Assembly (NCBI GenBank): GCA_025453925.1
Contig: JALOPK010000044.1
Span: forward strand, 1 to 14,650
Reading direction: 5' to 3'
DNA: 14,650 bases
Source: Candidatus Eiseniibacteriota bacterium
GTDB taxonomy: Bacteria; JAFGKV01
Shown: positions 1,445 to 14,141 of the stretch, piece by piece
How positions within the stretch are numbered: the first letter of the stretch is position 1
Layout of the letters: each line of letters starts with the position of its first letter
The notes under the pieces: generated by a model
What the model was told of the DNA's origin: nothing
Databases searched by the model: none
Seen by the model: the letters and a program-made list of their open reading frames with translations, nothing else
Position numbers and translations under genes: made by a program

Positions 1445-1954
1445 ATGCACATGAGTAGCGTCGAGATGGTCGCTGATGCCTTGAACCGTGCGAATGTTCG
1501 GTATCTCGTCGTCGGCGGATTGGCGGTGGTTGCGCATGGGTACGTGCGGTTCACTGCCGACATCGACATCGTCCTCGATCTGGAGCCGTCGAACGTCGAA
1601 TCCGCGATGGCGGCCTTGACCGCGCTTGGCTACCGGCCACGCGCCCCTGTGGTTTTGGCAGAGTTCGCCGATCCTGTCAAGCGAGCATCGTGGGTTCAGG
1701 ACAAGGGCCTGCGGGTCTTCTCGCTGTGGAGTGCGGAACACCAGGCGACCGAGATTGACATCTTTGTCGAAGAGCCCTTCGACTTCGACGAGGCGTACCG
1801 CAGGGCGAGAATGGTTGAGATCTTGCCCACCCTTGCCCTGCCGGTTGCGGCTATCGACGATCTTCTTGCTCTCAAGCGCGCCGCCGGCCGACCGGTCGAC
1901 CTCGAGGACGTGAGAGCTCTGGAAGCTCTCAGGACTGACCGTGGAGAAGACTGA
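1445..1954 (+). CDS. MNT/AbiEii-like nucleotidyltransferase (DUF6036-type), 169 aa
   Basis: This is a small nucleotidyltransferase of the type found in two-gene toxin-antitoxin-like modules. The polymerase-beta-like signature is complete: VVGG at 22-25, then DIDIV with two catalytic carboxylates (D39, D41), and a third carboxylate strand EIDIF (D105). The C-terminal part (LPVAAIDDLLALKRAAGRP, residues 132-150) matches the 'DLLALK-AAGR-DLEDV' ending common to this family. The ATG at 1445 is preceded by GGGAGAGG; an ATG two codons later is a close alternative. Its end overlaps the next gene by 14 bases, so the two are probably translated together. By family analogy it may transfer nucleotides to a protein or tRNA target, but whether it acts as toxin, antitoxin or a housekeeping enzyme cannot be read from sequence. 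Confidence 0.88.
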   Translation: MHMSSVEMVADALNRANVRYLVVGGLAVVAHGYVRFTADIDIVLDLEPSNVESAMAALTALGYRPRAPVVLAEFADPVKRASWVQDKGLRVFSLWSAEHQATEIDIFVEEPFDFDEAYRRARMVEILPTLALPVAAIDDLLALKRAAGRPVDLEDVRALEALRTDRGED

Positions 1955-2164: not shown

Positions 2165-3136
2165 CTACTTGGCCGTGCCGGGCGTGACGATGCGCACCAG
2201 ACCCTGGGTGCCGGGTTGGGCCACGACGGTTTTGCGCTGCACTCCCGGCAGTGTCTCGTTGAGGAACTCCAGATGGAGCCTCCGCCTCGTGACCGCGGGC
2301 GCGCGCGCGTACTCGGTGTGAATGCTGACAAAGCGGGCCGCATCCCCCTGGGCCTTGGTGACCACGCGTTGCTCGTATGCTTCGGCATCGCGAACCAACC
2401 GGTCCGCGTCAGCCTTGGCGCGGGGCATCTTCTCGTTCTGATACGAAAGCGCGTTGTTGATCACCTTCTCTTTGTCGATCATGGCGTTGATCACATCATT
2501 GAAGTACTCCTGCACCTGCTCCGGAGGGCGAACCTCCTGTAGCTCGACGAACGACACGTCCAGGCCGGTCTCCATCTCATCAAGTCTCCGCTGGAGCTCC
2601 TGTTTCACTTCGATCTGGATGCCTGACTTACCCACGGTGAGGACATCGTCGATGGTGAGGTGCGACAGGCTGTGGATCAGCGTCGTGCACGCGAGGCTAC
2701 GGAGCGTTCGTTCGGCGTCCTTCAACGAGAAGAGATAGCGGGCGGGGTCGCTGATGGAGTATTGGAGCACGCAGTTCACCGTCACGATGTTGTTGTCACC
2801 CGTGATCAAGTATGACGAGAGCCCCGTCATCTGGCGGAACGCGGCCGCAAGCTCTCCTTTCTCATAGAAATCGTCTATCGTGATGCGCTTGACCTGCCTG
2901 ACGGGAACGTGGATCACCCGATCCACGGGCCACGGCAGTGCGTAGTGGATCCCGGCGGGCACCGCACTGTCGATGACCTTGCCGAATCGCAGCAGCACGC
3001 CGACGTGGCTCGAATCGACGGAGTAGATGCCGGAGGCGCAATAGGCAACGACCACGGCGCCCACGAGCCAGACTGCGAACGCGCCCGTTTTTCGCGCCGA
3101 ACCACGGAGGTCGGAATCGTAGCCGGCTGCGGTCAT
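2165..3136 (-). CDS. hflK: HflK-type SPFH membrane protein (323 aa)
   Basis: This is a prohibitin-like (SPFH/Band 7) protein anchored in the inner membrane with its bulk in the periplasm. HflK and HflC form a cage around the FtsH protease and modulate its access to membrane substrates. One membrane span lies at about residues 17-38, followed directly by the SPFH start (SSHVGVLLRFGKV, 42-54, and GIHYALPWPVDRV, 62-74). The segment ITGDNNIVTVNCVLQYSISDP is the HflK type rather than HflC. An Ala/Glu/Lys-rich helical region from about 225 to 280 should form the coiled-coil wall. The start ATG overlaps the end of hflC by 4 bases (ATGA). It is the last gene of the three-gene SPFH operon and the second HflK in it. 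The family is certain; the exact partner arrangement is inferred. Confidence 0.9.
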   Translation of the reverse strand: MTAAGYDSDLRGSARKTGAFAVWLVGAVVVAYCASGIYSVDSSHVGVLLRFGKVIDSAVPAGIHYALPWPVDRVIHVPVRQVKRITIDDFYEKGELAAAFRQMTGLSSYLITGDNNIVTVNCVLQYSISDPARYLFSLKDAERTLRSLACTTLIHSLSHLTIDDVLTVGKSGIQIEVKQELQRRLDEMETGLDVSFVELQEVRPPEQVQEYFNDVINAMIDKEKVINNALSYQNEKMPRAKADADRLVRDAEAYEQRVVTKAQGDAARFVSIHTEYARAPAVTRRRLHLEFLNETLPGVQRKTVVAQPGTQGLVRIVTPGTAK

Positions 3137-4029
3137 TGTGAGTTCTGCCCCGATCGAGGACTGCTTGTTCCGAGATAGCGGAAGAGCTCCGAGTCGGTCG
3201 AGAGGATGAGCGTGGACTTCTCCTTGAGTGCGGCCCTGTACAGGTCGAGGGACTTCAGGAAGTCGAAGAACTCGGCATCTCGGCCATAGGCTTGGGCATA
3301 GATCCGCGTGGCCTCCTGATCACCGTGCCCTTTCAGTATCTCCGCCTGCTTGTATGCCTCCGCGAGAATCTGCGACACATCCTTGTCGGTGGCCGCCTCG
3401 ATTCTTGCGGCGGCTTCGGTGCCTTCAGCTCGGTACTTACGCGCTTCCTTCTCCCGCTCCGCACGCATGCGGTTGTACACGGCATCCGCCACGATCGACG
3501 GGTAGCTCAAGCGTCGAAGCCCGACGCGAATTGTCTCGATGCCGTACTTGTCTCTTGCCTGCGGCGCCGTGATGTTCAGGACTCGGCGTTCCAGTTCTTC
3601 CAGTTTCACCGAGTCGGGATCTGCATTGATGATGTCGTCCAGGGTGTAGTCGGCCAGCGATGAACCCAGCGCCGAGACCACCATGTCGCCCAGCTTCTGC
3701 CGGGCAACCTCTGCCCGGGCCAGCGATCGGAAGAAGAGAAGTGGATCATCAACGCGCCACGCGATGAAGGTGGTGACGATGACGGGGTTCTTGTCTCCCA
3801 GCAGCAGCTGGATCGGTTGGCCATTGAAGACTTCGATCCGTGCATCCATCCGGTTGACGCGCTGCAGGAAGCCGGGAAGCTTCCACCGGAGCCCCGGCTC
3901 TGTGATGGTGGCAACGGGCTTGCCGAACTGCGTGACGATGGCCGCCTCTCCCGCAGAAATCGTGAACATGGAGAAGCGCACGACCATCGCGCAGACGAGT
4001 GCGACCAGACCGATTCGAAGCAGTTTCAT
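3133..4029 (-). CDS. hflC: HflC, FtsH protease modulator (298 aa)
   Basis: This is the HflC subunit of the HflKC-type inner-membrane complex. The N-terminal span (about residues 4-24) is followed by the SPFH entry SAGEAAIVTQFGKPV and GLRWKLPGFLQRV. The middle shows HflC-like features: LLGDKNPVIVTTFIAWRVDDPLLFF, then YGIETIRVGLRRLSYP and a charged helix RMRAEREKEARKYRAEGTEAA leading to GHGDQEATRIYAQAYGRDAEFFDFLKSLDLY, a signature stretch of HflC proteins. Length is close to the usual family length. It overlaps the gene on each side by 4 bases, which argues for coupled translation and defined stoichiometry. FtsH itself is not encoded in the window. Confidence 0.93.
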   Translation of the reverse strand: MKLLRIGLVALVCAMVVRFSMFTISAGEAAIVTQFGKPVATITEPGLRWKLPGFLQRVNRMDARIEVFNGQPIQLLLGDKNPVIVTTFIAWRVDDPLLFFRSLARAEVARQKLGDMVVSALGSSLADYTLDDIINADPDSVKLEELERRVLNITAPQARDKYGIETIRVGLRRLSYPSIVADAVYNRMRAEREKEARKYRAEGTEAAARIEAATDKDVSQILAEAYKQAEILKGHGDQEATRIYAQAYGRDAEFFDFLKSLDLYRAALKEKSTLILSTDSELFRYLGTSSPRSGQNSQ

Positions 4030-5843
4030 TCCCCAACCTCCCCCTGGAATCGTTGCGGCGGCGGTGTGAGCGGCGCCGCAATCAGCGCCTGCGGCGAAAG
4101 AAGCGGCGTGTCGAGCAAGAGTGTCGGCGTACGCGCCTTCGGGTCGACCAGAACCAGGTTCACGGCCGCGAGGACCTCGGCGAGCGCATCGAGATAGAGA
4201 CGTTTCAATGTGACCCTGCGAGCGGCTGAATCCCCGACTCGCCTGGCCAGGAACCGCTCTGCATCACCGTGTGCGCGGGCGACTCGCTCCGTCGCATAGG
4301 CACTCGCCTGCTCCACCGAACGCACGGCCTCACCCCGCCGTTCGGGTATCACCTGGTTCTGGTACCCATGGGCTTCGTTGATCATCCGTTCCTTCTCCTG
4401 ACGGGCTGCGATCACCTGCTCGAAGGCGTCAGCGATGAAGATGGGTGGATGGATGTCCCGGAAGTAGACCCCTACGACCTCAACGCCGGTGTGCAGGGAG
4501 TCCATTTCCGACTGCGTCATCTGCCGGATCTGCGATTCCAGCAGCCCACGTTCCTCGCCCACGATGGCTTCGAACTCGCGGCTGGCGAGAAGGCGGCTTA
4601 TGACGCTGTGGGCGATGCTGTCCAGCAGCTCTTCGGGCTGCGCGTGACGCATGAGATAGTGATACGCATCGGAGATCCGGTAGTGGAGGACGACATAGGG
4701 GAAGAAGAAGCTGTTGTCACCCGACAGGAATGGCTCTTCGGTACCATGGGCCTGCGTCCACAGCAGGGCGAAAGTAGCCTCGTCGGTCGTATTCCCAAGG
4801 TTCACATGCCGGATCCGGTAGGTGTCGATCTTGACCGGACGGTCAATGGGCCAGGGGAGCTTCATGTGCAGGCCGGACAGGACGGGGTGACCATCATGGA
4901 GCGGTCGTCCCAGCCGAACCAGAATCGCTTGCTCCGACGGCCCGACCGTGTAAAGGGCGGTGGAGAGGTATGCAATAACCGCGAGCACGATCAGAGGGCC
5001 GCGCACTGCCACTGCGAGCCGGCGTCCGGTCCTTATGCGGTTCACGACCTGCCATCCCGTGACCGACTCCAACCAACCCGCCGCGCGGCGGAGGTTCTCC
5101 CTTCGGAGCGCAGAGCCCACCAACGGCGCCAGCCGCATGTGCGCGACCGTGTGCGGATCGCCGCGGACGCGAGCGGTTGCCGTCGCGATCAGGGTCTCCA
5201 AGCCGAAGGAGAGGACGAACAGCGAAATCAGCACGGCCACCGGTCGATCCACGTCGACGCCGAGGGCATAGAGCAGCATGGCAACGCCCGTGAGGAGCGC
5301 GCCGATCATGTCCGCCTTGGAGTGCATCCCATCGGAGATGAGGCCGACTGACCCTTCCCGAGTGCCCACGGATGTCTCGAAGCGGTACACGAAGTAGGAG
5401 CCGATCGCGAAGACGAAGAAGACGATGCCCGACAACATGGGCCGCTGGATTCCCGTCTTTGGAAGCACGGCCACCTTCTGCACCACGCCGATGGCGACTG
5501 CCACAAGCAACAGCCCTATGCCGAATGCCACGTAGTGCTCCAGGCTCGTCTGTCGAAGGAATCCTCTCACCGAGTCACGCCATGTGGGCGTCTTCGCTTC
5601 AGACGTCTCCCCCTCGAACTGAACCCCCTCGATGGGCGGTCGATCCGTCACGCGCCGCTGTTCCGCGGGGTGCGTGCTCACCGAGAGCAGTACGAGGAGG
5701 GAGGTGCCCACGTCCGAGACCGAATGCCATGCCTCCGCCAGAATCGCCAGGCTCCCGGTGATGGCAAACATGCCGAACTTCAGGAGGGCCAGAAGAAGAT
5801 TGAGCCCCGTGGAGAGAAGGCCGGTTCTGACCTTTATGTCCAT
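4026..5843 (-). CDS. Fusion: CDF cation-transporter membrane domain + HflK-like SPFH protein (605 aa)
   Basis: This is one uninterrupted reading frame with two recognisable halves. Residues 1-220 look like the six-helix membrane domain of a cation diffusion facilitator, with spans near 8-28, 34-54, 103-121, 137-154, 167-195 and 201-220. Both HxxxD metal sites are intact: H40/D44 in helix 2 (AEAWHSVSD) and H174/D178 in helix 5 (SDGMHSKAD). The usual cytosolic CDF C-terminal domain is missing. A basic linker (about 222-280) leads instead to another span (281-298) and an HflK-like SPFH domain (VGPSEQAILVRLGRP, then GLHMKLPWPIDRPVKID) with a long helical region to about 550. Typical HflK is about 320-420 aa. 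The start has GGTGGAG about 9 bases upstream, and the end overlaps hflC by ATGA. A membrane metal-ion transporter tethered to the FtsH-modulating cage is inferred. Frame and domains are clear; function is not. Confidence 0.85.
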   Translation of the reverse strand: MDIKVRTGLLSTGLNLLLALLKFGMFAITGSLAILAEAWHSVSDVGTSLLVLLSVSTHPAEQRRVTDRPPIEGVQFEGETSEAKTPTWRDSVRGFLRQTSLEHYVAFGIGLLLVAVAIGVVQKVAVLPKTGIQRPMLSGIVFFVFAIGSYFVYRFETSVGTREGSVGLISDGMHSKADMIGALLTGVAMLLYALGVDVDRPVAVLISLFVLSFGLETLIATATARVRGDPHTVAHMRLAPLVGSALRRENLRRAAGWLESVTGWQVVNRIRTGRRLAVAVRGPLIVLAVIAYLSTALYTVGPSEQAILVRLGRPLHDGHPVLSGLHMKLPWPIDRPVKIDTYRIRHVNLGNTTDEATFALLWTQAHGTEEPFLSGDNSFFFPYVVLHYRISDAYHYLMRHAQPEELLDSIAHSVISRLLASREFEAIVGEERGLLESQIRQMTQSEMDSLHTGVEVVGVYFRDIHPPIFIADAFEQVIAARQEKERMINEAHGYQNQVIPERRGEAVRSVEQASAYATERVARAHGDAERFLARRVGDSAARRVTLKRLYLDALAEVLAAVNLVLVDPKARTPTLLLDTPLLSPQALIAAPLTPPPQRFQGEVGE

Positions 5844-5958: not shown

Positions 5959-5977
5959 GAGGCGGGGAGGCCGCCTC
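5959..5977 (-). terminator. Hairpin between the cofactor cluster and the SPFH operon
   Basis: A perfect 7-bp stem (GAGGCGG / CCGCCTC) with a 5-base loop lies in the 206-base gap between the last NifX-like gene and the CDF-HflK gene. Read on the minus strand it is followed by TGGTTATCTTC, which is only moderately T-rich. It could end or attenuate transcription from the cluster. It could equally be chance in GC-rich DNA. Confidence 0.25.
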
Positions 5978-6049: not shown

Positions 6050-6388
6050 TCAATGATCGCACAGGTTGTCACCGGTCTTCAACGCGCCGGCGAGGTAGTC
6101 AGTCACCAGGCGTTCCGGCGTCTCACAGGGGGCGCCGATCTCGACTTTGATCCCGTGCTGGGCGAACAAGCCTTGCGCGCGCCCGCCCATGCCGCCGGCG
6201 ATCACCACAGTGACGCCTCGTTCGGCCAGCCATGGCGGCAGCAGGCCCGGCTGATGGGGTGGCGCATCCAGATCCGTTCGTTTCTGGATTGCCTTGGTGG
6301 CCGCGTCGGCATCGATGAGCGCGAATTGCGCGCAGTGGCCGAAATGGACGCAGAGTCTGCCGTCAGCTATGGGGATGGCGATTCGCAT
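6050..6388 (-). CDS. NifX/NafY-like cofactor-binding protein, ORP-type (112 aa)
   Basis: This is a single-domain member of the dinitrogenase iron-molybdenum-cofactor family (PF02579-type). These small proteins hold metal-sulfur clusters; the Desulfovibrio orange protein of this fold carries a Mo-Cu sulfide cluster. Supporting pattern: MRIAIPIADGRLCVHFGHC at the N-terminus, then VTVVIAGGMGGRAQGLFAQHGIKVEIGA (about 59-87), the usual central Gly-rich strand-turn of the fold. The ATG at 6388 has AAAGGAGA upstream and conserved N-terminal sequence; the frame is open far upstream but only in the shadow of the Mrp gene. It starts 26 bases before the Mrp stop, so the two are translationally coupled. 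In Desulfovibrio MrpORP the corresponding domains are fused, which supports a joint role. It is the last gene of the cluster. Confidence 0.9.
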   Translation of the reverse strand: MRIAIPIADGRLCVHFGHCAQFALIDADAATKAIQKRTDLDAPPHQPGLLPPWLAERGVTVVIAGGMGGRAQGLFAQHGIKVEIGAPCETPERLVTDYLAGALKTGDNLCDH

Positions 6389-7721
6389 CGTGGGTCTCCT
6401 TTTGTTTGTCTTCTGTGTCGCACGTCGCGTGCGAGGCTCCTGCCGCCACAAGGCGGCCGATTTCATCAACGGTTCGACGCAGGGAGAGCCCTGCCGCCGA
6501 GTCGGGATACGTTTCAATGATCGGCGAGCCGTCGTCCGAAGTCTCGGCGACCAGCGGATCAACTGGGATCGATCCCAGGTACCGAATCCGCATTTCTTCA
6601 GCGATCCGCTTTCCCGCGCCATCGCGCAAGATGGCAGTGGTCTTGCCGCAGTGCGGGCAGGCAAACGCACCCATGTTCTCGACGACGCCGAGGACGGGAA
6701 CACTCAGCTTCCGGCAGAAGGTGATGGACTTCCGCACGTCGATTTCCGCCACGCGCTGAGGGGTCGTGACGATGACGGCGCCATCGACCTTCCCCAGCAA
6801 CTGAAACACGGAGAGCGGCTCGTCCCCGGTACCGGGTGGGCAGTCGATCACCAGGAAATCGAGGTCACCCCATGCTCCGTCCTGGAGGAGTTGCCGGATG
6901 ACCCCCACCTTCATGGGACCCCGCCAGATCACCGCGTCGTCGGGGCTCTCCAGGAAGAACCCCAGAGAAAGCACCTTTACACCGTTCCGCTCCACCGGTA
7001 TCAGCTCGCCGTCGTGAGAATAGGGCTTCTGTCCCTCGAGGCCAAGCATCGTCGGCACGCTGGGGCCATGGAAGTCCACATCCAGCAGCCCGACCGTGCA
7101 CCCGTCTTGCGCGAGCCCCACCGCGAGGTTGACCGCCACGGTGCTCTTGCCGACGCCGCCCTTGCCGGAGAGGACCACGATCTTGTGCCGGATGCGGCAG
7201 AGACGTTGCTCGAGCTTCTGCCGTTGGGCGAACTCCTCCTCGGTCTCGTTCGGCCGTCGATTCTGGGCGGTACAACTGCGGTCGGTACATGAACCGCAGT
7301 GGGCTCCCTCGGAAGAGGAAGCGGGTTGGCGCCGCTGCGCCACCGCCTTGGCATAGTTCTCACATGCGGCCCGAAGGGTGGCGCTGGCCAGGGCCGCGCA
7401 GTGAACTACCTCAGTAGGGAGCCCTCCCAGGGCCTGCACGATATCATCCTGGCTGACGGACGCCGCGTCCTCCAGGCTTTTGCCTTCGGCCAGCGTGGTG
7501 GCGATGCTGCCGCACGCCAAAGACGGGGCGCACCCGTCGGTCGTGAACGAGGCCCGCTCAACGACCTCGTCCCGAACCATAACCCACATTTCCATGGTGT
7601 CACCGCACTCGCCGGTGATACGGGCATGGCCATTGGCAAGCGTGGGCTTGCCATAGTTCCTCGGCCGCTGCGCATGCTCGATCACCGTGGCCGAGACGTG
7701 GACGACCTCATCGTTCTCCAT
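6363..7721 (-). CDS. mrp: NifU/IscU-like scaffold fused to Mrp/NBP35 Fe-S carrier ATPase (452 aa)
   Basis: Residues 1-125 form an IscU/NifU-N-like scaffold with all three cluster cysteines in place: ECGD (C39 with D41), TDGC (C64) and HCAA (C108). A linker with three more cysteines (HCGSC and RSC: C142, C145, C150) leads to the Mrp/NBP35 ATPase: deviant Walker A SGKGGVGKS (185-193), LLDVDFHGPSVPTMLG, VIDCPPGTGDEPL, and the CPHC pair (C355, C358) that bridges the dimer's 4Fe-4S cluster. A scaffold builds clusters and Mrp carries them to apo-proteins, so one chain could do both. The ATG at 7721 follows GGAGAGG at about 6 bases; an upstream in-frame ATG at 7784 lies within the preceding gene. 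It overlaps the MinD/ferredoxin gene upstream by 14 bases and the ORP-type gene downstream by 26. Confidence 0.92.
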   Translation of the reverse strand: MENDEVVHVSATVIEHAQRPRNYGKPTLANGHARITGECGDTMEMWVMVRDEVVERASFTTDGCAPSLACGSIATTLAEGKSLEDAASVSQDDIVQALGGLPTEVVHCAALASATLRAACENYAKAVAQRRQPASSSEGAHCGSCTDRSCTAQNRRPNETEEEFAQRQKLEQRLCRIRHKIVVLSGKGGVGKSTVAVNLAVGLAQDGCTVGLLDVDFHGPSVPTMLGLEGQKPYSHDGELIPVERNGVKVLSLGFFLESPDDAVIWRGPMKVGVIRQLLQDGAWGDLDFLVIDCPPGTGDEPLSVFQLLGKVDGAVIVTTPQRVAEIDVRKSITFCRKLSVPVLGVVENMGAFACPHCGKTTAILRDGAGKRIAEEMRIRYLGSIPVDPLVAETSDDGSPIIETYPDSAAGLSLRRTVDEIGRLVAAGASHATCDTEDKQKETHDANRHPHS

Positions 7722-8595
7722 CTGTTCCTCTCCGTTGTCGGATCTGGTCCCATACGTGGATGATATCCGCCTTGGCCGGCCCATCCATCTCCACGACTGT
7801 CTTGCCCGCCACTTGTGCCCGCGTCACCGTTGTGTCGTAGCGGATGCGGCCGACGGCACGGGCTCCGGTTTCGCGGGCTTTCAACTCGATGGCTGCGGTC
7901 ATGGCAGGATTGATGTCCCACTTGTTCACGCATACGGCGGTAGGAATGCCGAAATGCTTCGTGAGCGCAAGTAATCGCTCCAAATCGTGGGAGCCCGACA
8001 CGGTAGGTTCCGTCACCGCCAGGACCGTCGATGCCCCGACGACTGAGGCAATGACGGGACAGCCGATACCAGGAGGCCCGTCGACGATGATCAGCGATCG
8101 GTCTTCTTCCTTCGCGATGCGTTGTGCCTCCCGGCGCACCGTGGTGACCAGCTTGCCGGAGTTCTCCGCCGCTACTCCCAACCGCGCGTGTACCATGGGC
8201 CCGCACCGGGTATCCGACACCATCCACTCGCCGCACCGGCGCTCAGGGAAATCAATGGCCCTGGCGGGGCAGAACCTCACGCATACGCCGCAGCCCTCGC
8301 AGGATGTAGGATCGATGGCGTAGCCGCCACCAGATTCCCTCGTGACCCCACCGAACCGGCAATACGCATGACAGAGGCCGCACCGGGTGCATTCGTCGGG
8401 CCGGATCACGGCTTCATTGCCGCTCAGGAACTCATGCCGTTCTCTCACCGTCGGGCTGAGAACGAGGTGCAGGTCAGCTGCGTCAACGTCGCAATCGGCG
8501 ATGACCGCCCCGCTCGCGAGCACCGCCAAAGATGCGGCCACGCTGGTCTTCCCGGTGCCGCCCTTGCCGCTGATGATGACCAGTTCGTCCATCAT
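7708..8595 (-). CDS. MinD-family P-loop ATPase with two 4Fe-4S motifs (295 aa)
   Basis: This is a cytosolic ParA/MinD-type ATPase with an inserted two-cluster ferredoxin domain, the type paired in ORP gene sets. The deviant Walker A is SGKGGTGKTS (9-18), and the Switch/Walker B region is IIVDGPPGIGCPV. Two CxxCxxCxxxC motifs bind 4Fe-4S clusters: C69/C72/C75/C79 (CTRCGLCHAYC) and C99/C102/C105/C109 (CEGCGVCVRFC, followed by P). The likely role is ATP-driven handling or delivery of the metal-sulfur cofactor of the NifX-like proteins, by analogy with the Desulfovibrio ORP complex. The start ATG overlaps the radical SAM stop (ATGA); a second ATG follows immediately. It is related to, but clearly diverged from, the ATPase at 9777-10739, so the two could form a heterodimer. 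Confidence 0.92.
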   Translation of the reverse strand: MMDELVIISGKGGTGKTSVAASLAVLASGAVIADCDVDAADLHLVLSPTVRERHEFLSGNEAVIRPDECTRCGLCHAYCRFGGVTRESGGGYAIDPTSCEGCGVCVRFCPARAIDFPERRCGEWMVSDTRCGPMVHARLGVAAENSGKLVTTVRREAQRIAKEEDRSLIIVDGPPGIGCPVIASVVGASTVLAVTEPTVSGSHDLERLLALTKHFGIPTAVCVNKWDINPAMTAAIELKARETGARAVGRIRYDTTVTRAQVAGKTVVEMDGPAKADIIHVWDQIRQRRGTDGER

Positions 8596-9539
8596 GCCGC
8601 CCTCGTGGTGTGGTAGAATACCTTCCCCCGCCGGGGAAGGGCCTCGATCAAGCCCTGCGAGGCCAGCGCGTAAACCCGCTTCGCGACCTCTCCATGATGC
8701 CGTTGCAACCCCGCGGCGATATCCTGCACCGTGCAGGGGCGTCTGCTCAGGAGATCCATGATATCCGCATCTCGGTCAGCCCCGTCATTGGTTTCCGCCG
8801 GACTACGTTCTCTCTCGCTGATCACCTCTGCCGCGGGGTCGAAACGGGCGGCGAATGCAGCGAGGTGCTCACTGGACACCGGGAGCGCGTATTCCTCCGC
8901 GGGGGGGCGCGAGGCGGTGTTCAGTTGAACCCTTTCAGGTCTGATGCGATCGACGATGCGGGCAATCTTGTCCACCTCCGTTGCGATTCCCGTTACGCCG
9001 CCAAGCAAGAACACCTCCAGCCAAATCGGCTTGCGAAAGCGGCGTCGGAAATCCTCAAGCCCCGCGACCATGGTTGAGAAGGACACGGCGGGGTGAGGGC
9101 GGTTCACACAGGTGAAGAGGTGTTCATCGCCGGCATCGAGTGAGGGGAGCACGAGATCGGCCTCCATGAGGGTGTCCTGCACCTCACGTCTCCAGAGCAG
9201 CGAACCGTTCGTGAGTACGGCAACCGGCGAGGCGGTGAGGAGCTTGATCCCCGCGATCACCTCACCCAATCCCGAGTGGAGCGTCGGTTCCCCCGATCCC
9301 GCCAGCGCTACGTAGTCCGGGGGCCCTGTCTCAGAGAGGCGGTCCCGGAGCTCGGCGAGGACGGGCTGGACCGCAACGTACTCCCTTCGCTCCACGGTCT
9401 TGTTGGTCGTGGGTCCAAGTTGGCAGTAGACGCAGTCGTAGGTGCACGTTTTGAACGGCACCAGATCCACGCCCAGAGATCGTCCCAAGCGACGCGAGGG
9501 AACAGGACCGTAGACGAGGCTGGGGGCCTCCACGCTCAC
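8592..9539 (-). CDS. Radical SAM protein (COG0731-like) with winged-helix tail (315 aa)
   Basis: The radical SAM cluster motif CxxxCxxC is visible at C32/C36/C39 (CTYDCVYC), preceded by GPVPSRRLGRSLGVDLVPFKT, an opening I associate with COG0731 proteins (distant relatives of wybutosine-synthesis enzymes). The SAM-binding Gly-rich strand is ALAGSGEPTLH, with VAVLTNGSLL after it. Residues from about 254 to the end (DADIMDLLSRRPCTVQDIAAGL... LIEALPRRGKVFYH) resemble a winged helix, suggesting binding of nucleic acid or a partner. The substrate is unknown. The start is GTG, with the GTGA overlap linking it to the FmdB-like gene, and GGGAA lies upstream. Being locked between two MinD/ferredoxin ATPases, it probably modifies or builds part of the same cofactor system. 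Confidence 0.88.
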   Translation of the reverse strand: MSVEAPSLVYGPVPSRRLGRSLGVDLVPFKTCTYDCVYCQLGPTTNKTVERREYVAVQPVLAELRDRLSETGPPDYVALAGSGEPTLHSGLGEVIAGIKLLTASPVAVLTNGSLLWRREVQDTLMEADLVLPSLDAGDEHLFTCVNRPHPAVSFSTMVAGLEDFRRRFRKPIWLEVFLLGGVTGIATEVDKIARIVDRIRPERVQLNTASRPPAEEYALPVSSEHLAAFAARFDPAAEVISERERSPAETNDGADRDADIMDLLSRRPCTVQDIAAGLQRHHGEVAKRVYALASQGLIEALPRRGKVFYHTTRAA

Positions 9540-9796
9540 GACCGTTTCCCGCAGGGAGGGGCGCCGCAGCGTTCATCCCTGCCACAGCACGTCGAGCCGG
9601 TCTGCTCCAGCGAGCAGGTCGTGCCGCCGCGTGGGACTTGATCTCCCGAATTGACGAGGATGCCTCCTCCGCCACTGATGACTCGCCGCACCGTGCCCCC
9701 ACACGCGGGGCATGTGGTGAGCACAGCATCGCTCATCTGCTGTCGTCGTTCGAACCGGTCCCCACAGGCTCCGCATTCATACTCGTACGTTGGCAT
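9536..9796 (-). CDS. FmdB-like zinc-ribbon protein with Cys-rich tail (86 aa)
   Basis: The N-terminus MPTYEYECGACGDRFE and the second pair CPACGGTVRRVISGGGG match the small FmdB-type (CxxC...CxxC) zinc ribbons: C8/C11 and C29/C32. FmdB-like proteins are named from formamidase operons, but their job is not established; metal-dependent regulation or binding is plausible. The tail after residue 55 carries five more cysteines (TTCS, STCCGRDERC, PPCG), which could hold another metal. The ATG at 9796 has a strong GGAGGGAG about 6 bases upstream. It overlaps the ATPase gene before it by 20 bases and the radical SAM gene after it by 4 bases. It is co-translated with the cofactor genes. Confidence 0.85.
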   Translation of the reverse strand: MPTYEYECGACGDRFERRQQMSDAVLTTCPACGGTVRRVISGGGGILVNSGDQVPRGGTTCSLEQTGSTCCGRDERCGAPPCGKRS

Positions 9797-10739
9797 TGGC
9801 TCCCTCCGTGGTAGATGCCCCGGTTGCAGGGTTCAAGGGTCGGAGTTCCGTCTCTCCCCCGCCCCGGTGCTCGTGCCCGTCTCCCTGAGTCACGAACCTT
9901 CGTGCTGCGCACAATGCAGTGACTGACTCAGCGAGCTGGCGGAAGAGCGCTCGGTACTCCGGCAGAGCCTCCACGATGGGGATGCCTTGGGAATAGGCCT
10001 CGGCAATCCGCCGGTCATCGGGTATCTCCTGAAGAACCGGGATGTGGTGCGCCGCACAGAACGCGTGCACGCGATTATCACCGATTCCGACCCGATTGAC
10101 CACCACACCCATCGGCAGACCAAGCGCTCCCACCATTTGGACGGCCAGGGTCAGATCGTGGAGGCCGAATGGCGTCGGCTCCGTCACCAGGACTACCGCG
10201 TCGGCACCCCGTATCGCGGTGATCACCGGGCATGACGTCCCGGGTGGTGCGTCAAGCAGAGCGACTCCGTCATGTGGGATCCGAGCCTTGACGGCCCGGA
10301 TGAGCGGAGGAGACATGGCGACACCGACATCGAGATGCCCCCCGACGAGGGTGACCCCTTCTACCTCAGACGTTTCGATGACGCCGATCCTTCGCGCCAC
10401 CTCCGTGATGGCGCCTCGTGGGCACACTCTGGCGCATCCGCCGCAACTGTGGCACAGCTCTCTGAACACCAAAGGTTTCGTGCCCGGGGCAACGATGGCG
10501 TGGTAGACGCAGAAACGGGAGCACTCCCCGCAGGCATCGCACCGTGCCATGTCAACCTGGGGAACGGGAACCGTGATGATCTCCTGCTGCGCGCTATCGG
10601 CCCGCAGGAACAGGTGCGCATTGGGCTCCTCGACATCACAATCCAAGAGCCAGACCGGCGCGCCCCATGCCAGGGCAAGGTTGACGGCCACGGTGGTCTT
10701 GCCCGTGCCACCTTTACCTGACGCTATTGCTATGATCAT
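9777..10739 (-). CDS. MinD-family P-loop ATPase with two 4Fe-4S motifs, second copy (320 aa)
   Basis: It has the same architecture as the ATPase at 7708-8595. The deviant Walker A is SGKGGTGKTT (8-17), then LLDCDVEEPNAHLFL. Two 4Fe-4S motifs follow: C67/C70/C73/C77 (CDACGECSRFC) and C96/C99/C102/C106 (CHSCGGCARVCP). DAPPGTSCPVI is the hydrolysis-side strand. The C-terminal 40 residues (GDGHEHRGGGE...) are Gly/His-rich and not family-like. The start ATG begins the conserved first strand, so it is almost certainly right, yet there is no Shine-Dalgarno sequence before it; the leader is made of imperfect heptamer repeats. It is probably the partner of the other ATPase in an ORP-like complex. It overlaps the FmdB-like gene by 20 bases. 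Confidence 0.92.
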   Translation of the reverse strand: MIIAIASGKGGTGKTTVAVNLALAWGAPVWLLDCDVEEPNAHLFLRADSAQQEIITVPVPQVDMARCDACGECSRFCVYHAIVAPGTKPLVFRELCHSCGGCARVCPRGAITEVARRIGVIETSEVEGVTLVGGHLDVGVAMSPPLIRAVKARIPHDGVALLDAPPGTSCPVITAIRGADAVVLVTEPTPFGLHDLTLAVQMVGALGLPMGVVVNRVGIGDNRVHAFCAAHHIPVLQEIPDDRRIAEAYSQGIPIVEALPEYRALFRQLAESVTALCAARRFVTQGDGHEHRGGGETELRPLNPATGASTTEGANANVRV

Positions 10740-10744
10740 CGTAT

Positions 10745-10772
10745 GGTTCGTAGTTTACGGTTCACGGTTTAC
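10745..10772. repeat. Four imperfect heptamer repeats upstream of the second MinD/ferredoxin ATPase
   Basis: Four adjacent 7-base units read on the plus strand as GGTTCGT, AGTTTAC, GGTTCAC and GGTTTAC (minus strand GTAAACC-like). They end 5 bases before the start codon at 10739, in the only sizeable gap (90 bases) between genes 11189 and 6050, and occupy the place where a ribosome-binding site should be. They may be a simple repeat from slippage or part of a dispersed intergenic family. Confidence 0.7.
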
Positions 10773-10829
10773 CACTCTCCGCTTCACTTTTGTGTCTCGG
10801 GCGTCGGAGCTCCCGCGCAGCGATCCCGC

Positions 10830-11189
10830 CTACCAGTGGCCTTCCACATCGGCTCCTTCGGCCTGCGAAAGCGAGCCGGCTTTGAACGCGGCCAGGGCGG
10901 CCGCGACTGTTGGCAGGTCGGTGGTGTAGACCTTGATGCCGACGGCTGAAAGGACGCGAAAAGCTTTCGGGCCGCAATGGCCTGTGATGACGGCATCTAC
11001 CCCGGCGCGAGCGACGTGTTCCGCGGCCTGCACGCCGGCGCCCTGTGCGGCCTGCAGATTCTGTGCGTTATCCAGCAGCGTGAACGCCCCACTCTCCACG
11101 TCGTAAATGAGGAACTTGGGAGCCCGGCCGAACCGGCTGTCCAACGCTGCATCCACTGTTTCACCGGAGGTGGTGATGGCAAGTTTCAT
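10830..11189 (-). CDS. NifX/NafY-like cofactor-binding protein (119 aa)
   Basis: This is a second single-domain NifX-fold protein. It has the family's opening (MKLAITTSGETVDAALDSRFGRAPKFLIYDV), the central GVQAAEHVARAGVDAVITGHCGPKAFRVL (52-80) with a Cys after the Gly, and the strand GIKVYTT. Proteins of this fold carry or protect metal-sulfur cofactors. Here it is more likely to serve the ORP-like system than nitrogenase, since no nitrogenase gene is in the window. The ATG at 11189 has AGGAGTG about 6 bases upstream, with a strong hairpin just before that. It follows DUF5320 by 72 bases and is followed by a 90-base gap. It differs from the ORP-type protein at 6050-6388 in lacking the early Cys in that protein's DGRLC. 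Confidence 0.9.
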   Translation of the reverse strand: MKLAITTSGETVDAALDSRFGRAPKFLIYDVESGAFTLLDNAQNLQAAQGAGVQAAEHVARAGVDAVITGHCGPKAFRVLSAVGIKVYTTDLPTVAAALAAFKAGSLSQAEGADVEGHW

Positions 11190-11209
11190 CGGTCACTCCT
11201 GATAGGGGA

Positions 11210-11238
11210 GCGCGCGGCATCGCAGGGATGCCGCGCGC
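11210..11238 (-). promoter_or_regulatory. 12-bp stem-loop before the NifX-like gene
   Basis: Arms GCGCGCGGCATC (11210-11221) and GATGCCGCGCGC (11227-11238) pair perfectly around a 5-base loop, in the 72-base gap between DUF5320 and the NifX-like gene. Its 3' side on the minus strand ends about 10 bases before the AGGAGTG ribosome-binding site. No U-run follows, so it is unlikely to be a full terminator. mRNA processing, stability or partial attenuation is more likely. Confidence 0.65.
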
Positions 11239-11261
11239 GATGCGGCTTCGCCTCAAGCGGG

Positions 11262-11651
11262 CTATTCGGTCTCAGAAACTGTCTCGAGTTCTTCCAGACG
11301 CTTCCTCAGGAACTCAAGTTGCGACTGCAACATACCGACTTGGCCTTTGAGGGCCTGCTTCTCAAGCTCGGGGTCCGGCGTCCGGGGAGGCGCCGGAGGC
11401 CCGTAGGGCATCGGATACCCAGAGGCCCATCCCGCCATCGGGGGGGCGCCATACCAACCTTCCCTCCCACGGCCCCAACCACCTCGGCCCCGACCGAAGC
11501 CTCGTCCAAGCCCTCGGCCGAAGCCCCGACCGAAACCCCGGCCGGCGGCCGGGTTCCCATACCCGGGCACGCTGTTACCCGCGCAGTACCCCGCGCCTCT
11601 GCCGGTCATGGGTCCTGCTCCCAACGGCCCAGTGCGATCTCCGCCTGGCAC
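11262..11651 (-). CDS. DUF5320 family protein (129 aa)
   Basis: The N-terminus MPGGDRTGPLGAGPMTGRGAG is the hallmark of DUF5320 proteins, which commonly sit beside NifX-like and MinD/ferredoxin genes in anaerobes. Three parts are visible. First comes the conserved Gly-rich head. Then comes a repetitive basic stretch of GRGFGR/GLGR units (about 36-66) with aromatic GWY residues. Last is a predicted coiled coil from about 92 (LEKQALKGQVGMLQSQLEFL and onward). The start is GTG with a perfect AGGAGGTG 5 bases upstream. It lies 18 bases after the stop of the NifX-zinc-ribbon gene, so it is part of the same transcript. Function is unknown; the coiled coil suggests an oligomeric scaffold. Confidence 0.88.
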   Translation of the reverse strand: MPGGDRTGPLGAGPMTGRGAGYCAGNSVPGYGNPAAGRGFGRGFGRGLGRGFGRGRGGWGRGREGWYGAPPMAGWASGYPMPYGPPAPPRTPDPELEKQALKGQVGMLQSQLEFLRKRLEELETVSETE

Positions 11652-11669
11652 AATACACCTCCTGTGATT

Positions 11670-12257
11670 CTACTCGCGAGTCATCGGAAGCCCGCATTTC
11701 GGGCACCGGCTCTGATTACACGGAACCCCACGTTCATGAGGCTCCTTGTGTCCACATTGCGGGCATACGCAAGAGCCACCAGGGCCGCCAGCGAACTGGC
11801 CTCCCATCCGGCCGCGTCCCTGCCCACCCCGGGGGTTGGCCCCCCGCTGATTCATTCCTGCCATGGATCCTCCCTTCAGTCGGGCTCCGGAACGCGCGCG
11901 GAGACCATGTCGTCTCCCGCCGCCGCATCCCGGCATGGCATACTCGGCGGCACCCAGCGTGCCGCTCGACCACGCGTCCACGACCGCGACCAATGGCCCG
12001 GTCACGAAAGGGTAGACGCGAATACCGTAGGCGACCACCATGGTGCGCAGAGGATATGAGATCGCCCCGCATACCAGGTCAGTGATGGCGAGTTCCGCCA
12101 GGCGCATGGCCTTCGTCGCAGGCGAATCGGGCGGCAATGAGGTCCGCTGCTGGTCTCCCATGCGACCGGAGATCACGTTGACAACGCAGATCTGCCCAGC
12201 CGTGTCGAAGACCGGCGCGATACGTTCATTCCAGACTGCGAAACCGACTCTCGTCAT
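11670..12257 (-). CDS. NifX-like domain joined to Gly-rich zinc-ribbon tail (195 aa)
   Basis: This is the first gene of the cluster. Residues 1 to about 110 are a NifX-fold domain (MTRVGFAVWNERIAPVFDTAG, LVCGAISYPLRTMVVAYGIRVYPFVTG, ending AEYAMPGCGGGRR). Residues 132-195 are a Gly/Arg linker and a zinc-ribbon-like end: C165/C168 (CPQC), C180 and C185/C188 (CPKC), closing with PMTRE. The ATG at 12257 has AAAGGAAAGGGG upstream and lies 23 bases after the predicted sigma-54 start site. Oddly, the frame contains AAGGGAGG followed 4 bases later by ATG at residue 132, as if a second gene began there. The two halves look like neighbours that became one frame. The domain likely carries a metal cluster; the tail may bind Zn or a partner. 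Confidence 0.85.
   Translation of the reverse strand: MTRVGFAVWNERIAPVFDTAGQICVVNVISGRMGDQQRTSLPPDSPATKAMRLAELAITDLVCGAISYPLRTMVVAYGIRVYPFVTGPLVAVVDAWSSGTLGAAEYAMPGCGGGRRHGLRARSGARLKGGSMAGMNQRGANPRGGQGRGRMGGQFAGGPGGSCVCPQCGHKEPHERGVPCNQSRCPKCGLPMTRE
11864..11879 (-). promoter_or_regulatory. Internal ribosome-binding site and start for the zinc-ribbon half
   Basis: Inside the 195-aa frame the minus strand reads AAGGGAGGATCC directly before an in-frame ATG at 11864, a near-perfect Shine-Dalgarno at proper distance. Starting there gives a 64-aa protein, MAGMNQRGANPRGG through the PMTRE end, holding the complete Gly-rich and zinc-ribbon part. It may be the remains of a separate gene or a working second start. 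Confidence 0.55.
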
Positions 12258-12428: not shown

Positions 12429-12446
12429 AGTCGCTACAATGCGACT
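12429..12446. promoter_or_regulatory. Activator-site palindrome 2 (distal)
   Basis: AGTCGCTACAATGCGACT is a second copy of the 18-bp site, with 6 of 7 arm positions paired and identical outer arms. Its centre is 33 bp from that of the first, about three helical turns, which favours side-by-side binding of activator dimers. It overlaps the activator gene's stop codon by two bases. Confidence 0.68.
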
Positions 12447-13821
12447 ATTCGCGATTCGAGCGAAGGGTCGACCTGGGAGGGGCCTGGATGCCGAGACGTT
12501 TGATCTTCCGGAAGAACGTACTCTTGTGAATCCCGAGTTCTGCCGCTGTGGCAAGGCGGTTGAAACCGTTGCGCTCCAAGGCGCGGCGGATGGTCTGTGC
12601 CTCGACCAGATCGCGGGTTGCCCTGATTGACTGCCGTGGCGGAACAACACCGGTTCCCAAGAAGTCGCCCGGGAGGTGGGCGATGTCGATGGGGCCTTGG
12701 TTGCACAGGACGAACGCCCGCTCGACAACGTTCTCCAGTTCCCGTACGTTCCCCGGCCAGTCGTGAGCCATGAGGAGCGAAAGCGCCTCGGCAGTCATGC
12801 CGGCAATGCTCCTCTGCTGCAGACGGTTGAAGCGGGCGATGAACTGGTCCACCAGGAGCGGAATGTCCTCTTTGCGCCGGCGGAGGGGCGGGAGCTCGAT
12901 TCGCACGACGTTGACACGGTAGTAGAGGTCTTCCCGGAACGCTCCGGCGCGGACGTCGGCAGCCAGGTCCGCATTCGTCGCGACGATGATGCGGGCGTCC
13001 GTGGTCTCGGAACGCGTTGCACCCAGCGGTTCGTACACCCTTTCTTGCAGAACGCGGAGGAGGCGCACCTGGAGCGCGGTGCTGACGTGTCCGATCTCAT
13101 CCAGGAAGAGTGTCCCTCCCGTCGCCATGGCAAACCGTCCGGGCTTGTTCCTGGTCGCACCCGTGAACGCGCCGGCCTTGTAGCCGAACAGCTCTGACTC
13201 CAAGAGGGTATCCGGGAGCGCGCCGCAGTTGACTGCGACGAAGGGACCGTTTCGCCTGGAGCTCAGGGTGTGGATCGTCCGGGCGACGACCTCTTTGCCC
13301 GTCCCCGTCTCTCCCAGGATCAACACCGTGCTGGGGCTTGCGGCAACGGCGGGAAGCACCTCGAAGACGCGCTGCATGAGAGGGCTGTGGCTCACCAGAT
13401 CGCCGATGCGGGTGCGGCCGGCGAGTTCCTCCCGCAACGCTTCGATCTCGCTCAGATCACGGAAGGTCTCAGCGCCGCCGATTACCCTGCCTTCGTCGTT
13501 ACGAAGCACCGCGGTGGAAACGCTAATCGGGATTCGTTTTCCTTCGGCGTCAATAATGTAGCCCGATTGGCCAATGATGGGCCTGCCGCTCTTCACCGTG
13601 CGCCGCAGGGCGCACTCCGACGCGCACATGCTGGAACGGAATACGTCCGCACAAGGCCTGCCGATTGCGTCGCCACGCGGCACGCCAGTGATATCCTCCG
13701 CGGCCCGGTTGAACGATGTGACGATCCAATCGGGATCGACGGTGAAAACCCCGTCGGAAATGCTCTGGAGGATGGCCTCGGTGGGTGTCAGAGGCATCGA
13801 TCGCGTTGGTCGTCGTGGCAT
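12445..13821 (-). CDS. PAS-type sigma-54-dependent activator (458 aa)
   Basis: This is an enhancer-binding transcription activator with three parts. A PAS sensor domain spans about 14-125 and includes three cysteines (C57, C66, C70; CADVF...MCASEC). The AAA+ domain spans about 140-375: Walker A GETGTGKE (170-177), the sigma-54 contact loop GAFTGA (217-222), Walker B GTLFLDEIG (236-244) and NVRELENVVERA. A Fis-type helix-turn-helix closes the protein (about 405-443, ATAAELGIHKSTFFRKIKRLG). I start at the ATG at 13821, where GAAGG lies 7 bases upstream; the ATG at 13797 has no such site, and the one at 13935 would add 38 unlike residues. The gene lies directly before the sigma-54 promoter of the cofactor cluster, so that cluster is the obvious target. 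The PAS cysteines suggest sensing of redox, Fe-S or metal state. Confidence 0.93.
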   Translation of the reverse strand: MPRRPTRSMPLTPTEAILQSISDGVFTVDPDWIVTSFNRAAEDITGVPRGDAIGRPCADVFRSSMCASECALRRTVKSGRPIIGQSGYIIDAEGKRIPISVSTAVLRNDEGRVIGGAETFRDLSEIEALREELAGRTRIGDLVSHSPLMQRVFEVLPAVAASPSTVLILGETGTGKEVVARTIHTLSSRRNGPFVAVNCGALPDTLLESELFGYKAGAFTGATRNKPGRFAMATGGTLFLDEIGHVSTALQVRLLRVLQERVYEPLGATRSETTDARIIVATNADLAADVRAGAFREDLYYRVNVVRIELPPLRRRKEDIPLLVDQFIARFNRLQQRSIAGMTAEALSLLMAHDWPGNVRELENVVERAFVLCNQGPIDIAHLPGDFLGTGVVPPRQSIRATRDLVEAQTIRRALERNGFNRLATAAELGIHKSTFFRKIKRLGIQAPPRSTLRSNRE

Positions 13822-13883
13822 TCGGACCTTCTTATTCTGAAGGGGTTTTCCGGCTATCGTCCGCCTGTCTGGGGGCGATGTCG

Positions 13884-13904
13884 TGCCGTGGCGATGCCAC
13901 GGCA
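13884..13904. repeat. Perfect 9-bp stem-loop upstream of the activator gene
   Basis: TGCCGTGGC (13884-13892) and GCCACGGCA (13896-13904) pair around a GAT loop, about 63 bases before the activator's start codon. No T-run follows on either strand. It could be an operator, a leader hairpin, or a poor terminator for the small gene upstream. Confidence 0.5.
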
Positions 13905-13931
13905 TGGCGTCGGGCCACTTCAATCCCTTCT

Positions 13932-14141
13932 TCACATGCGTATGGTACCCTCATTCAGGCTCAGCGGATTCCTTGCTTCCTCGGACTTGACGAGACGTCG
14001 ATGGGCGGCACCGGGGAAGCTGATGGGGCAGTACGCGTGGATCAATGCTTCACTGTTCCGTGCGAGCACACCGAGACCTTTCAACGCCGTTTCGGAATGG
14101 CTCTTCTTGGGCCAATCTGAAAGGGACCTCTTCTCTTCCAT
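13932..14141 (-). CDS. Hypothetical small protein (69 aa)
   Basis: I do not recognise this protein. It starts MEEKRSLSDWPKKSHSETAL and ends with EEARNPLSLNEGTIRM. It is basic, mixed in composition, and shows no signal peptide, membrane span or metal motif. The case for it is an ATG at 14141 with GGAGG 7 bases upstream and placement between the palindrome array and the activator gene. The case against it is its small size and that the opposite strand is also open here. It might be a decayed fragment. Confidence 0.3.
   Translation of the reverse strand: MEEKRSLSDWPKKSHSETALKGLGVLARNSEALIHAYCPISFPGAAHRRLVKSEEARNPLSLNEGTIRM

Follow-up and report, generated by a model that had tools for sequence, protein, structure and literature searches.

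Sequence comparison indicates that a gene joining the membrane domain of a cation diffusion facilitator (CDF) to an HflK protein is genuine, widespread, and conserved across many phyla. HflK proteins of the same kind (here termed HflK1) are joined to three unrelated kinds of metal exporter (CDF, SO_0444-type, and P1B), a convergent link that evolved repeatedly. SPFH proteins form ring-shaped membrane cages, of which HflK is a subunit, and such cages are present throughout all life. Since HflK relatives of this kind carry three sorts of metal pump, these findings suggest that some bacteria place metal pumps inside SPFH cages. In a search of the open literature (subscription papers and domain databases lay outside it), we found no description of a CDF-HflK, SO_0444-HflK, or P1B-HflK fusion.

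The gene lies in a 14,650-nt stretch of DNA (the window) from contig JALOPK010000044.1 of a Candidatus Eiseniibacteriota bacterium (GCA_025453925.1). The features discussed below are as follows.

4026..5843, minus strand: CDF-HflK fusion gene (HflK1), 605 aa with an ATG start, gene 1 of a three-gene operon (the triad); ORF list, Pfam, NCBIfam, and AlphaFold2
5178..5843, minus strand: CDF transmembrane (TM) domain, residues 1-222, six TM helices without the CDF cytosolic domain; Pfam Cation_efflux and AlphaFold2
5712..5726, minus strand: metal-site half 1, H40-x3-D44, in TM2; D44 invariant and H40 at least 90% conserved in the alignment
5310..5324, minus strand: metal-site half 2, H174-x3-D178, in TM5; H174 invariant and D178 at least 90% conserved in the alignment
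5013..5177, minus strand: basic, predicted cytosolic linker, residues 223-277; 11 K+R versus 3 D+E
4134..5012, minus strand: residues 278-570, comprising TM7 (278-296) and, from HflK, the SPFH domain and a long helix; TIGR01933 at 297-571, Foldseek matches to HflK (9cz2/7vhq)
4746..4760, minus strand: W362-x3-H366 motif in the SPFH part, typical for CDF- and P1B-fused HflK1
3133..4029, minus strand: HflC, triad gene 2, with a 4-bp overlap with the fusion gene; TIGR01932, 200.5 bits (cutoff, 134)
2165..3136, minus strand: HflK2, triad gene 3, with a 4-bp overlap with hflC; TIGR01933, 229.6 bits (cutoff, 159)
5959..5977, minus strand: terminator-like hairpin in the gap that separates the triad from the NifX-like gene upstream; consensus scan, 1 found versus 0.2 expected

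An earlier note, made from the letters of the window, had read a single frame as a six-helix CDF domain followed by HflK, with both HxxxD metal sites intact, and Pfam, NCBIfam, and AlphaFold2 all confirmed this. The Cation_efflux family (PF01545; E value, 3.5e-13) matched two stretches of the protein, the best of them at residues 10 to 56, and Band_7 matched residues 299 to 493 (E value, 1e-16). No third Pfam family was found in the fusion protein at an E value of ≤0.01, so that ZT_dimer, the CDF cytosolic domain, was not seen. The fusion protein scored 176.2 bits against the HflK model TIGR01933, above the curated cutoff of 159.4; the copy in a congener (G001) reached 147.1 bits against the same cutoff. 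With the CDF whole-family model TIGR01297, the fusion protein reached 61.7 bits and thus fell below the cutoff of 82.35; that model includes the CDF tail, which is missing here. The four metal-site residues were found where the note had placed them (H40/D44 and H174/D178), and over 23 aligned fusions, D44 and H174 were invariant and H40 and D178 were conserved in at least 90% of the sequences; the losses within the 16-sequence set were of D178 in G274 and of H40 in G348 (one row each).

Structure prediction of the fusion alone gave six CDF helices of TM length (residues 3-29, 32-56, 88-126, 135-163, 166-193, and 199-227), a seventh TM helix at residues 274 to 294, the strands of an SPFH domain, and then a long helix. 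The AlphaFold2 model had a mean pLDDT of 73 and a pTM of 0.40, and the placement of the two halves relative to each other is not fixed by it. Foldseek searches with this model returned HflK and other SPFH domes first (best HflK E value, 8e-15) and the metal transporters SLC30A10, YiiP, and ZnT7 as weaker matches (E value, about 2e-4). Like the known CDFs (YiiP, ZnT, and MamB/MamM), the fusion has six TM helices with HxxxD in TM2 and TM5; unlike them, it lacks the cytosolic C-terminal dimerization domain (a usual though not invariable part of CDFs), is joined to TM7 and HflK, and falls below the TIGR01297 cutoff. Zinc CDFs such as ZnT have the same HxxxD/HxxxD sites, and by analogy, Zn2+ is probably the likeliest metal. 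The loop between TM6 and TM7 (residues about 222 to 277, some 56 residues) contains 11 basic and 3 acidic residues. By the positive-inside rule, we infer that this loop is cytosolic, and the SPFH part should then face the periplasm (outside), on the opposite face of the membrane from the position of a CDF tail. The earlier proposal that the SPFH part replaces the CDF cytosolic domain therefore stands insofar as the tail is missing by Pfam, but the SPFH domain follows an extra TM helix and is predicted to lie on the other side of the membrane, and we rejected the idea of an SPFH domain in place of the CDF tail on grounds of topology.

The draft genome is 82% complete and the window is one of its short contigs, and the junction could in principle have been an artefact of assembly or annotation. 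Absence of the fusion from related genomes had been named as grounds for doubt, but the protein is unbroken in the congener as well (71% identity over residues 1 to 587), and more than 20 other genomes carry an intact CDF-HflK. Estimates of dN/dS between the window and the congener were 0.16 for the CDF part and 0.16 for the HflK part, with 0.09 for the CDF TM helices and 0.13 for the junction (residues 200 to 320), values which indicate that the fusion is under purifying selection. When the fusion was sought in other genomes, as the earlier note had proposed, 16 of the 386 that were sampled had a full-length or near full-length CDF-HflK protein, and these hosts belong to many families and phyla. 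A scan of named genomes, in which the architecture was checked, added Desulfobacterales, FCPU426, CSSED10-310, Hydrothermota, Abyssobacteria, and Polyangiaceae, together with the isolates Aliagarivorans marinus and A. taiwanensis (type strains) and Desulfosporosinus metallidurans. CDF-HflK is also present on a complete circular conjugative plasmid of Aquibium oceanicum. On the strength of the intact orthologues and the codon-level constraint, we rejected a misassembly at 5000 to 5200, and with unbroken copies in the congener, many other genomes, and a complete plasmid, we give an artefact next to no credence.

The expectation of a metal transporter within an HflK/HflC-type (SPFH) operon was borne out, with HflC and HflK2 encoded in genes that overlap each other and the fusion gene. 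The order CDF-HflK, HflC, second HflK recurred: the fusion was nearly always the first gene of the operon, and where the context could be read, HflC and HflK2 lay downstream of it, the genes mostly overlapping or separated by very short gaps. The sole clear exception among these loci was a CDF-HflK gene with no adjacent HflC or HflK2 (G093; L048:6272-8086). A scan of the window for sigma-54 promoters gave 6 matches versus 5.8 expected, which is no signal, and no sigma-70-like promoter was found between 5800 and 6400.

Searches with the HflK half as the query recovered loci in which other transporters occupy the N terminus of HflK1. In one set, a Cu/Zn permease of the SO_0444 type (ArsP_1) is fused to HflK1 (e.g., L051 and L052; 365 bits, cutoff of 300); these loci (L050, L051, L052, L088, L089, L090, L097, and L165) in several cases continue with HflC and HflK. 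In another, the partner is a P1B heavy-metal ATPase, as in L087 (TIGR01525, 616 bits with a cutoff of 346; HflK, 198 bits), and such fusions, mostly near 990 aa in length, were found in many Acidobacteriota genomes (Terriglobia, Bryobacterales, and Solibacter); further P1B-HflK loci are L120, L139, L142, L157, L161, L168, L171 to L175, L182, and L185. Both sorts share with CDF-HflK the joining of a metal exporter to HflK1 and the same kind of triad operon; they differ from it in their unrelated transporter folds, and the SO_0444 (ArsP_1) type also differs in having no W-x3-H motif. No metal site can be recognized in the N-terminal domain of HflK1 in three genomes (G002, G230, and G259), where HflK2 is followed by a P1B ATPase gene. 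A P1B ATPase as the fourth gene was frequent where the metal site is missing, in these three genomes and on a conjugative plasmid of Burkholderia ubonensis, pMSMB2035 (L187), on which HflK1 (again without a metal site in its N-terminal domain), HflC, an SPFH gene, and a P-type ATPase gene lie in that order between insertion sequences. The plasmid copy suggests horizontal spread of the HflK1 operon. CDF homology of the degenerate N-terminal domains, by statistics against a tiny sequence set, was good for L053, L092, and L096 and was not shown for L055, L091, or the Burkholderia protein; the domain of G230 is a remote CDF homologue, and homology was not shown for G259 or for G002, which is cut by a contig end.

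In a tree of 144 HflK rows, 43 ordinary HflKs grouped as a single clade (SH-aLRT, 99) that excluded the triad HflKs. When two very long branches were removed, HflK2 formed one clade (SH-aLRT, 93), as did ordinary HflK (97); HflK1 is the remainder of the tree, and its single origin depends on the root. The N-terminal modules of HflK1 required three changes on the tree, the minimum for four states. By a simple pattern search, the W-x3-H motif was present in 22 of 23 CDF fusions (the match in L117 lies elsewhere in the protein), all 15 P1B fusions, and 4 of 5 degenerate fusions; the same pattern matched 0 of 8 ArsP fusions, 0 of 44 HflK2 proteins, and 1 of 49 other HflKs. That this motif handles metal is a guess. 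We did not retain the HPP motif at the C terminus as a marker because it also occurs in 13 of 49 other HflKs, and an HflK from a Leisingera plasmid (H2), considered as a candidate, proved to belong to an ordinary HflK/HflC pair.

We compared the triad with known systems that combine SPFH proteins with transporters or proteases. The stomatin dome lies on the cytosolic face, and the stomatin complex further differs from the fusion in being non-covalent and eukaryotic and in not holding a metal transporter. Human stomatin does provide the precedent of an SPFH dome enclosing a transporter, either aquaporin-1 (AQP1) or the urea transporter UT-B (PMC12407830). The E. coli HflK/HflC complex, which reaches into the periplasm (PMC12048511), shares with the triad the HflK SPFH domain, the HflC partner, and a single TM helix before a periplasmic SPFH domain, and its structures with FtsH (7vhq, 7wi3, and 9cz2) gave the best Foldseek matches. 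In contrast, E. coli HflK has no transporter domain, while the triad has two HflKs, which stand apart from the ordinary clade, and no adjacent FtsH. Judged by literature descriptions, the hmtA cluster of Pseudomonas aeruginosa looks like the same arrangement: PA2434-PA2439 comprises a P1B metal ATPase, HmtA, and three SPFH genes, which are up 9- to 14-fold upon zinc depletion (PMC4542158), and the SPFH proteins tend to rise as well (PMC11761036). The PA2439 promoter is bound by Zur (PMC8531726). The hmtA cluster differs in that its transporter is reported to be encoded by a gene of its own and to be an importer; one review regards HmtA import as still to be confirmed (PMC10393844). A 2026 survey lists PaFlo5-6-7 as a three-SPFH operon without a clear role (PMC13086221); by our mapping, this operon is probably PA2437-PA2439. 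Metals, cations, and transporters go unmentioned in a 2009 survey of SPFH proteins (PMC2636767).

We hypothesize that, within a dedicated three-gene SPFH assembly, the fusion (HflK1) is the subunit that bears the transporter, and that it is a metal exporter, probably of Zn2+, that would release metal under its own dome, a reading on which we are evenly divided. Like HflK and HflC of E. coli, the HflK1, HflC, and HflK2 proteins would together build a ring or dome over the outer face of the inner membrane. Each HflK1 would hold its CDF module within the membrane patch beneath the dome, and the SPFH assembly would bring about the dimerization for which the CDF tail is missing. In exchange for protons, the CDF module would export a divalent metal, with Zn2+ the most likely, to the space beneath the dome, where the metal might be confined, buffered, or handed on before it reaches the open periplasm; in other lineages, a Cu/Zn permease or a P1B ATPase would play the role of the CDF. 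What the dome does with the metal (confine it, buffer it, hand it on, or merely tether the pump) is the least certain part of this mechanism. Desulfosporosinus, one of the hosts, is generally taken to be without an outer membrane, which means that a closed periplasm cannot be a requirement for the role. The broader proposal, which we put forward more tentatively and with the balance leaning slightly against it, is that of a general class of SPFH-caged metal pumps, in which HflK1 with interchangeable exporters (CDF, SO_0444-type, or P1B) would form domes with HflC and HflK2 that enclose the pumps and create a local metal compartment, with the Pseudomonas hmtA operon as a split version. Export may not be general, since it is a shortage of zinc to which the Pseudomonas operon responds, and HmtA has been reported to be an importer.

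Several other explanations were weighed against caged export. The SPFH part may serve only as a tether that clusters or stabilizes the exporter in a membrane microdomain and replaces CDF dimerization, without an enclosed metal chamber. SPFH proteins are known oligomerizing scaffolds, the CDF tail that normally aids dimerization is missing, and a fusion would guarantee stoichiometry; however, tethering alone leaves unexplained both the conserved W-x3-H motif and the presence on the same HflK1 of three unrelated exporter types, which have no common oligomerization problem, and we regard it as unlikely but well worth keeping in view. The earlier note had placed metal export at or within the FtsH-modulating cage, coupling metal status to membrane proteolysis. 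The fusion protein does score as an HflK, FtsH was found in 16 of 17 triad hosts tested, and in G037, G221, and G248 the triad HflKs are the only ones over the family cutoff. Against this, the triad HflKs fall outside the ordinary HflK clade (SH-aLRT, 97 to 99), and several hosts keep an ordinary HflK elsewhere (G001 on contig 24, G026 on contig 142, G173, G219, G267, G274, and G341). FtsH was never near the triad: in the 16 hosts, it was on another contig in all but G230, where it lay more than 80 kb away. These results do not support the FtsH version, which we consider improbable, and a link to FtsH is not needed for caged export, the reading that we favor.

The transporter might instead serve uptake or intracellular metal supply, as has been claimed for Pseudomonas HmtA. 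The hmtA-SPFH locus is induced on zinc depletion (PMC4542158, PMC11761036), its first promoter is bound by Zur (PMC8531726), and the window triad lies beside Mrp/NifU/NifX iron-sulfur genes. The CDF, P1B, and SO_0444 families are nonetheless named and mostly characterized as exporters, and import by HmtA needs confirmation according to the review cited above (PMC10393844), so that we give uptake little weight. Less probable still is a metal sensor, in which a CDF-like domain without transport would report metal to the SPFH assembly: some lineages do have N-terminal domains without a metal site, but nearly all CDF fusions keep the full transport tetrad, and a lost site is often accompanied by a following P1B ATPase gene. 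Beyond FtsH, the contents of bacterial SPFH domes are largely open, and an HflK covalently linked to three unrelated kinds of metal transporter offers a specific, testable cargo. If caged export holds, the annotation "FtsH protease modulator HflK" would be recast for a whole group of proteins, the SPFH genes beside hmtA in Pseudomonas would gain a rationale, and stomatin enclosing transporters would have a bacterial counterpart.

The surroundings of the triad varied. In the window, positions 6050 to 12257 and 12445 to 13935 (minus strand) hold Mrp/MrpORP, NifU-like, NifX-like, Fe-S ATPase, and radical SAM genes and a sigma-54 PAS regulator, and the Mrp/NifU/NifX cluster resembles the orange-protein (ORP) loci of sulfate reducers. 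The triad adjoins Mrp, MrpORP, NifU-like, or NifX-like genes in the window, in the congener, in Abyssobacteria SURF_17 (L103/L143), and in the G077/G219/G348 group, and a sigma-54 PAS regulator lies near it in the first three; in a Desulfobacterales genome (L109), it lies near an MntR-like regulator and FeoB. These neighbors suggest a role, though not a universal one, in the metal or cofactor economy of anaerobes. A Pfam tally of 117 neighbor proteins revealed no recurrent metal transporter; the Mrp/ParA and NifX families that appeared in it came largely from the ORP-like neighborhoods. On the opposite strand of the window, a nucleotidyltransferase gene (DUF6036/AbiEii-like; 1445 to 1954, plus strand) lies between HflK2 and a phosphodiesterase-like gene (24 to 977), and both genes adjoin the triad in the congener too (L045). 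In two unrelated hosts, D. metallidurans (L132:2653-4977) and the Aquibium plasmid (L189:9474-11168), the triad adjoins a large peptidylprolyl isomerase (PrsA/SurA-like), which on the plasmid lies 3′ of the triad together with a heavy-metal P-type ATPase. In Aliagarivorans, an alkaline phosphatase-like lipoprotein is encoded immediately 3′ of the triad (L117:12853-14379).
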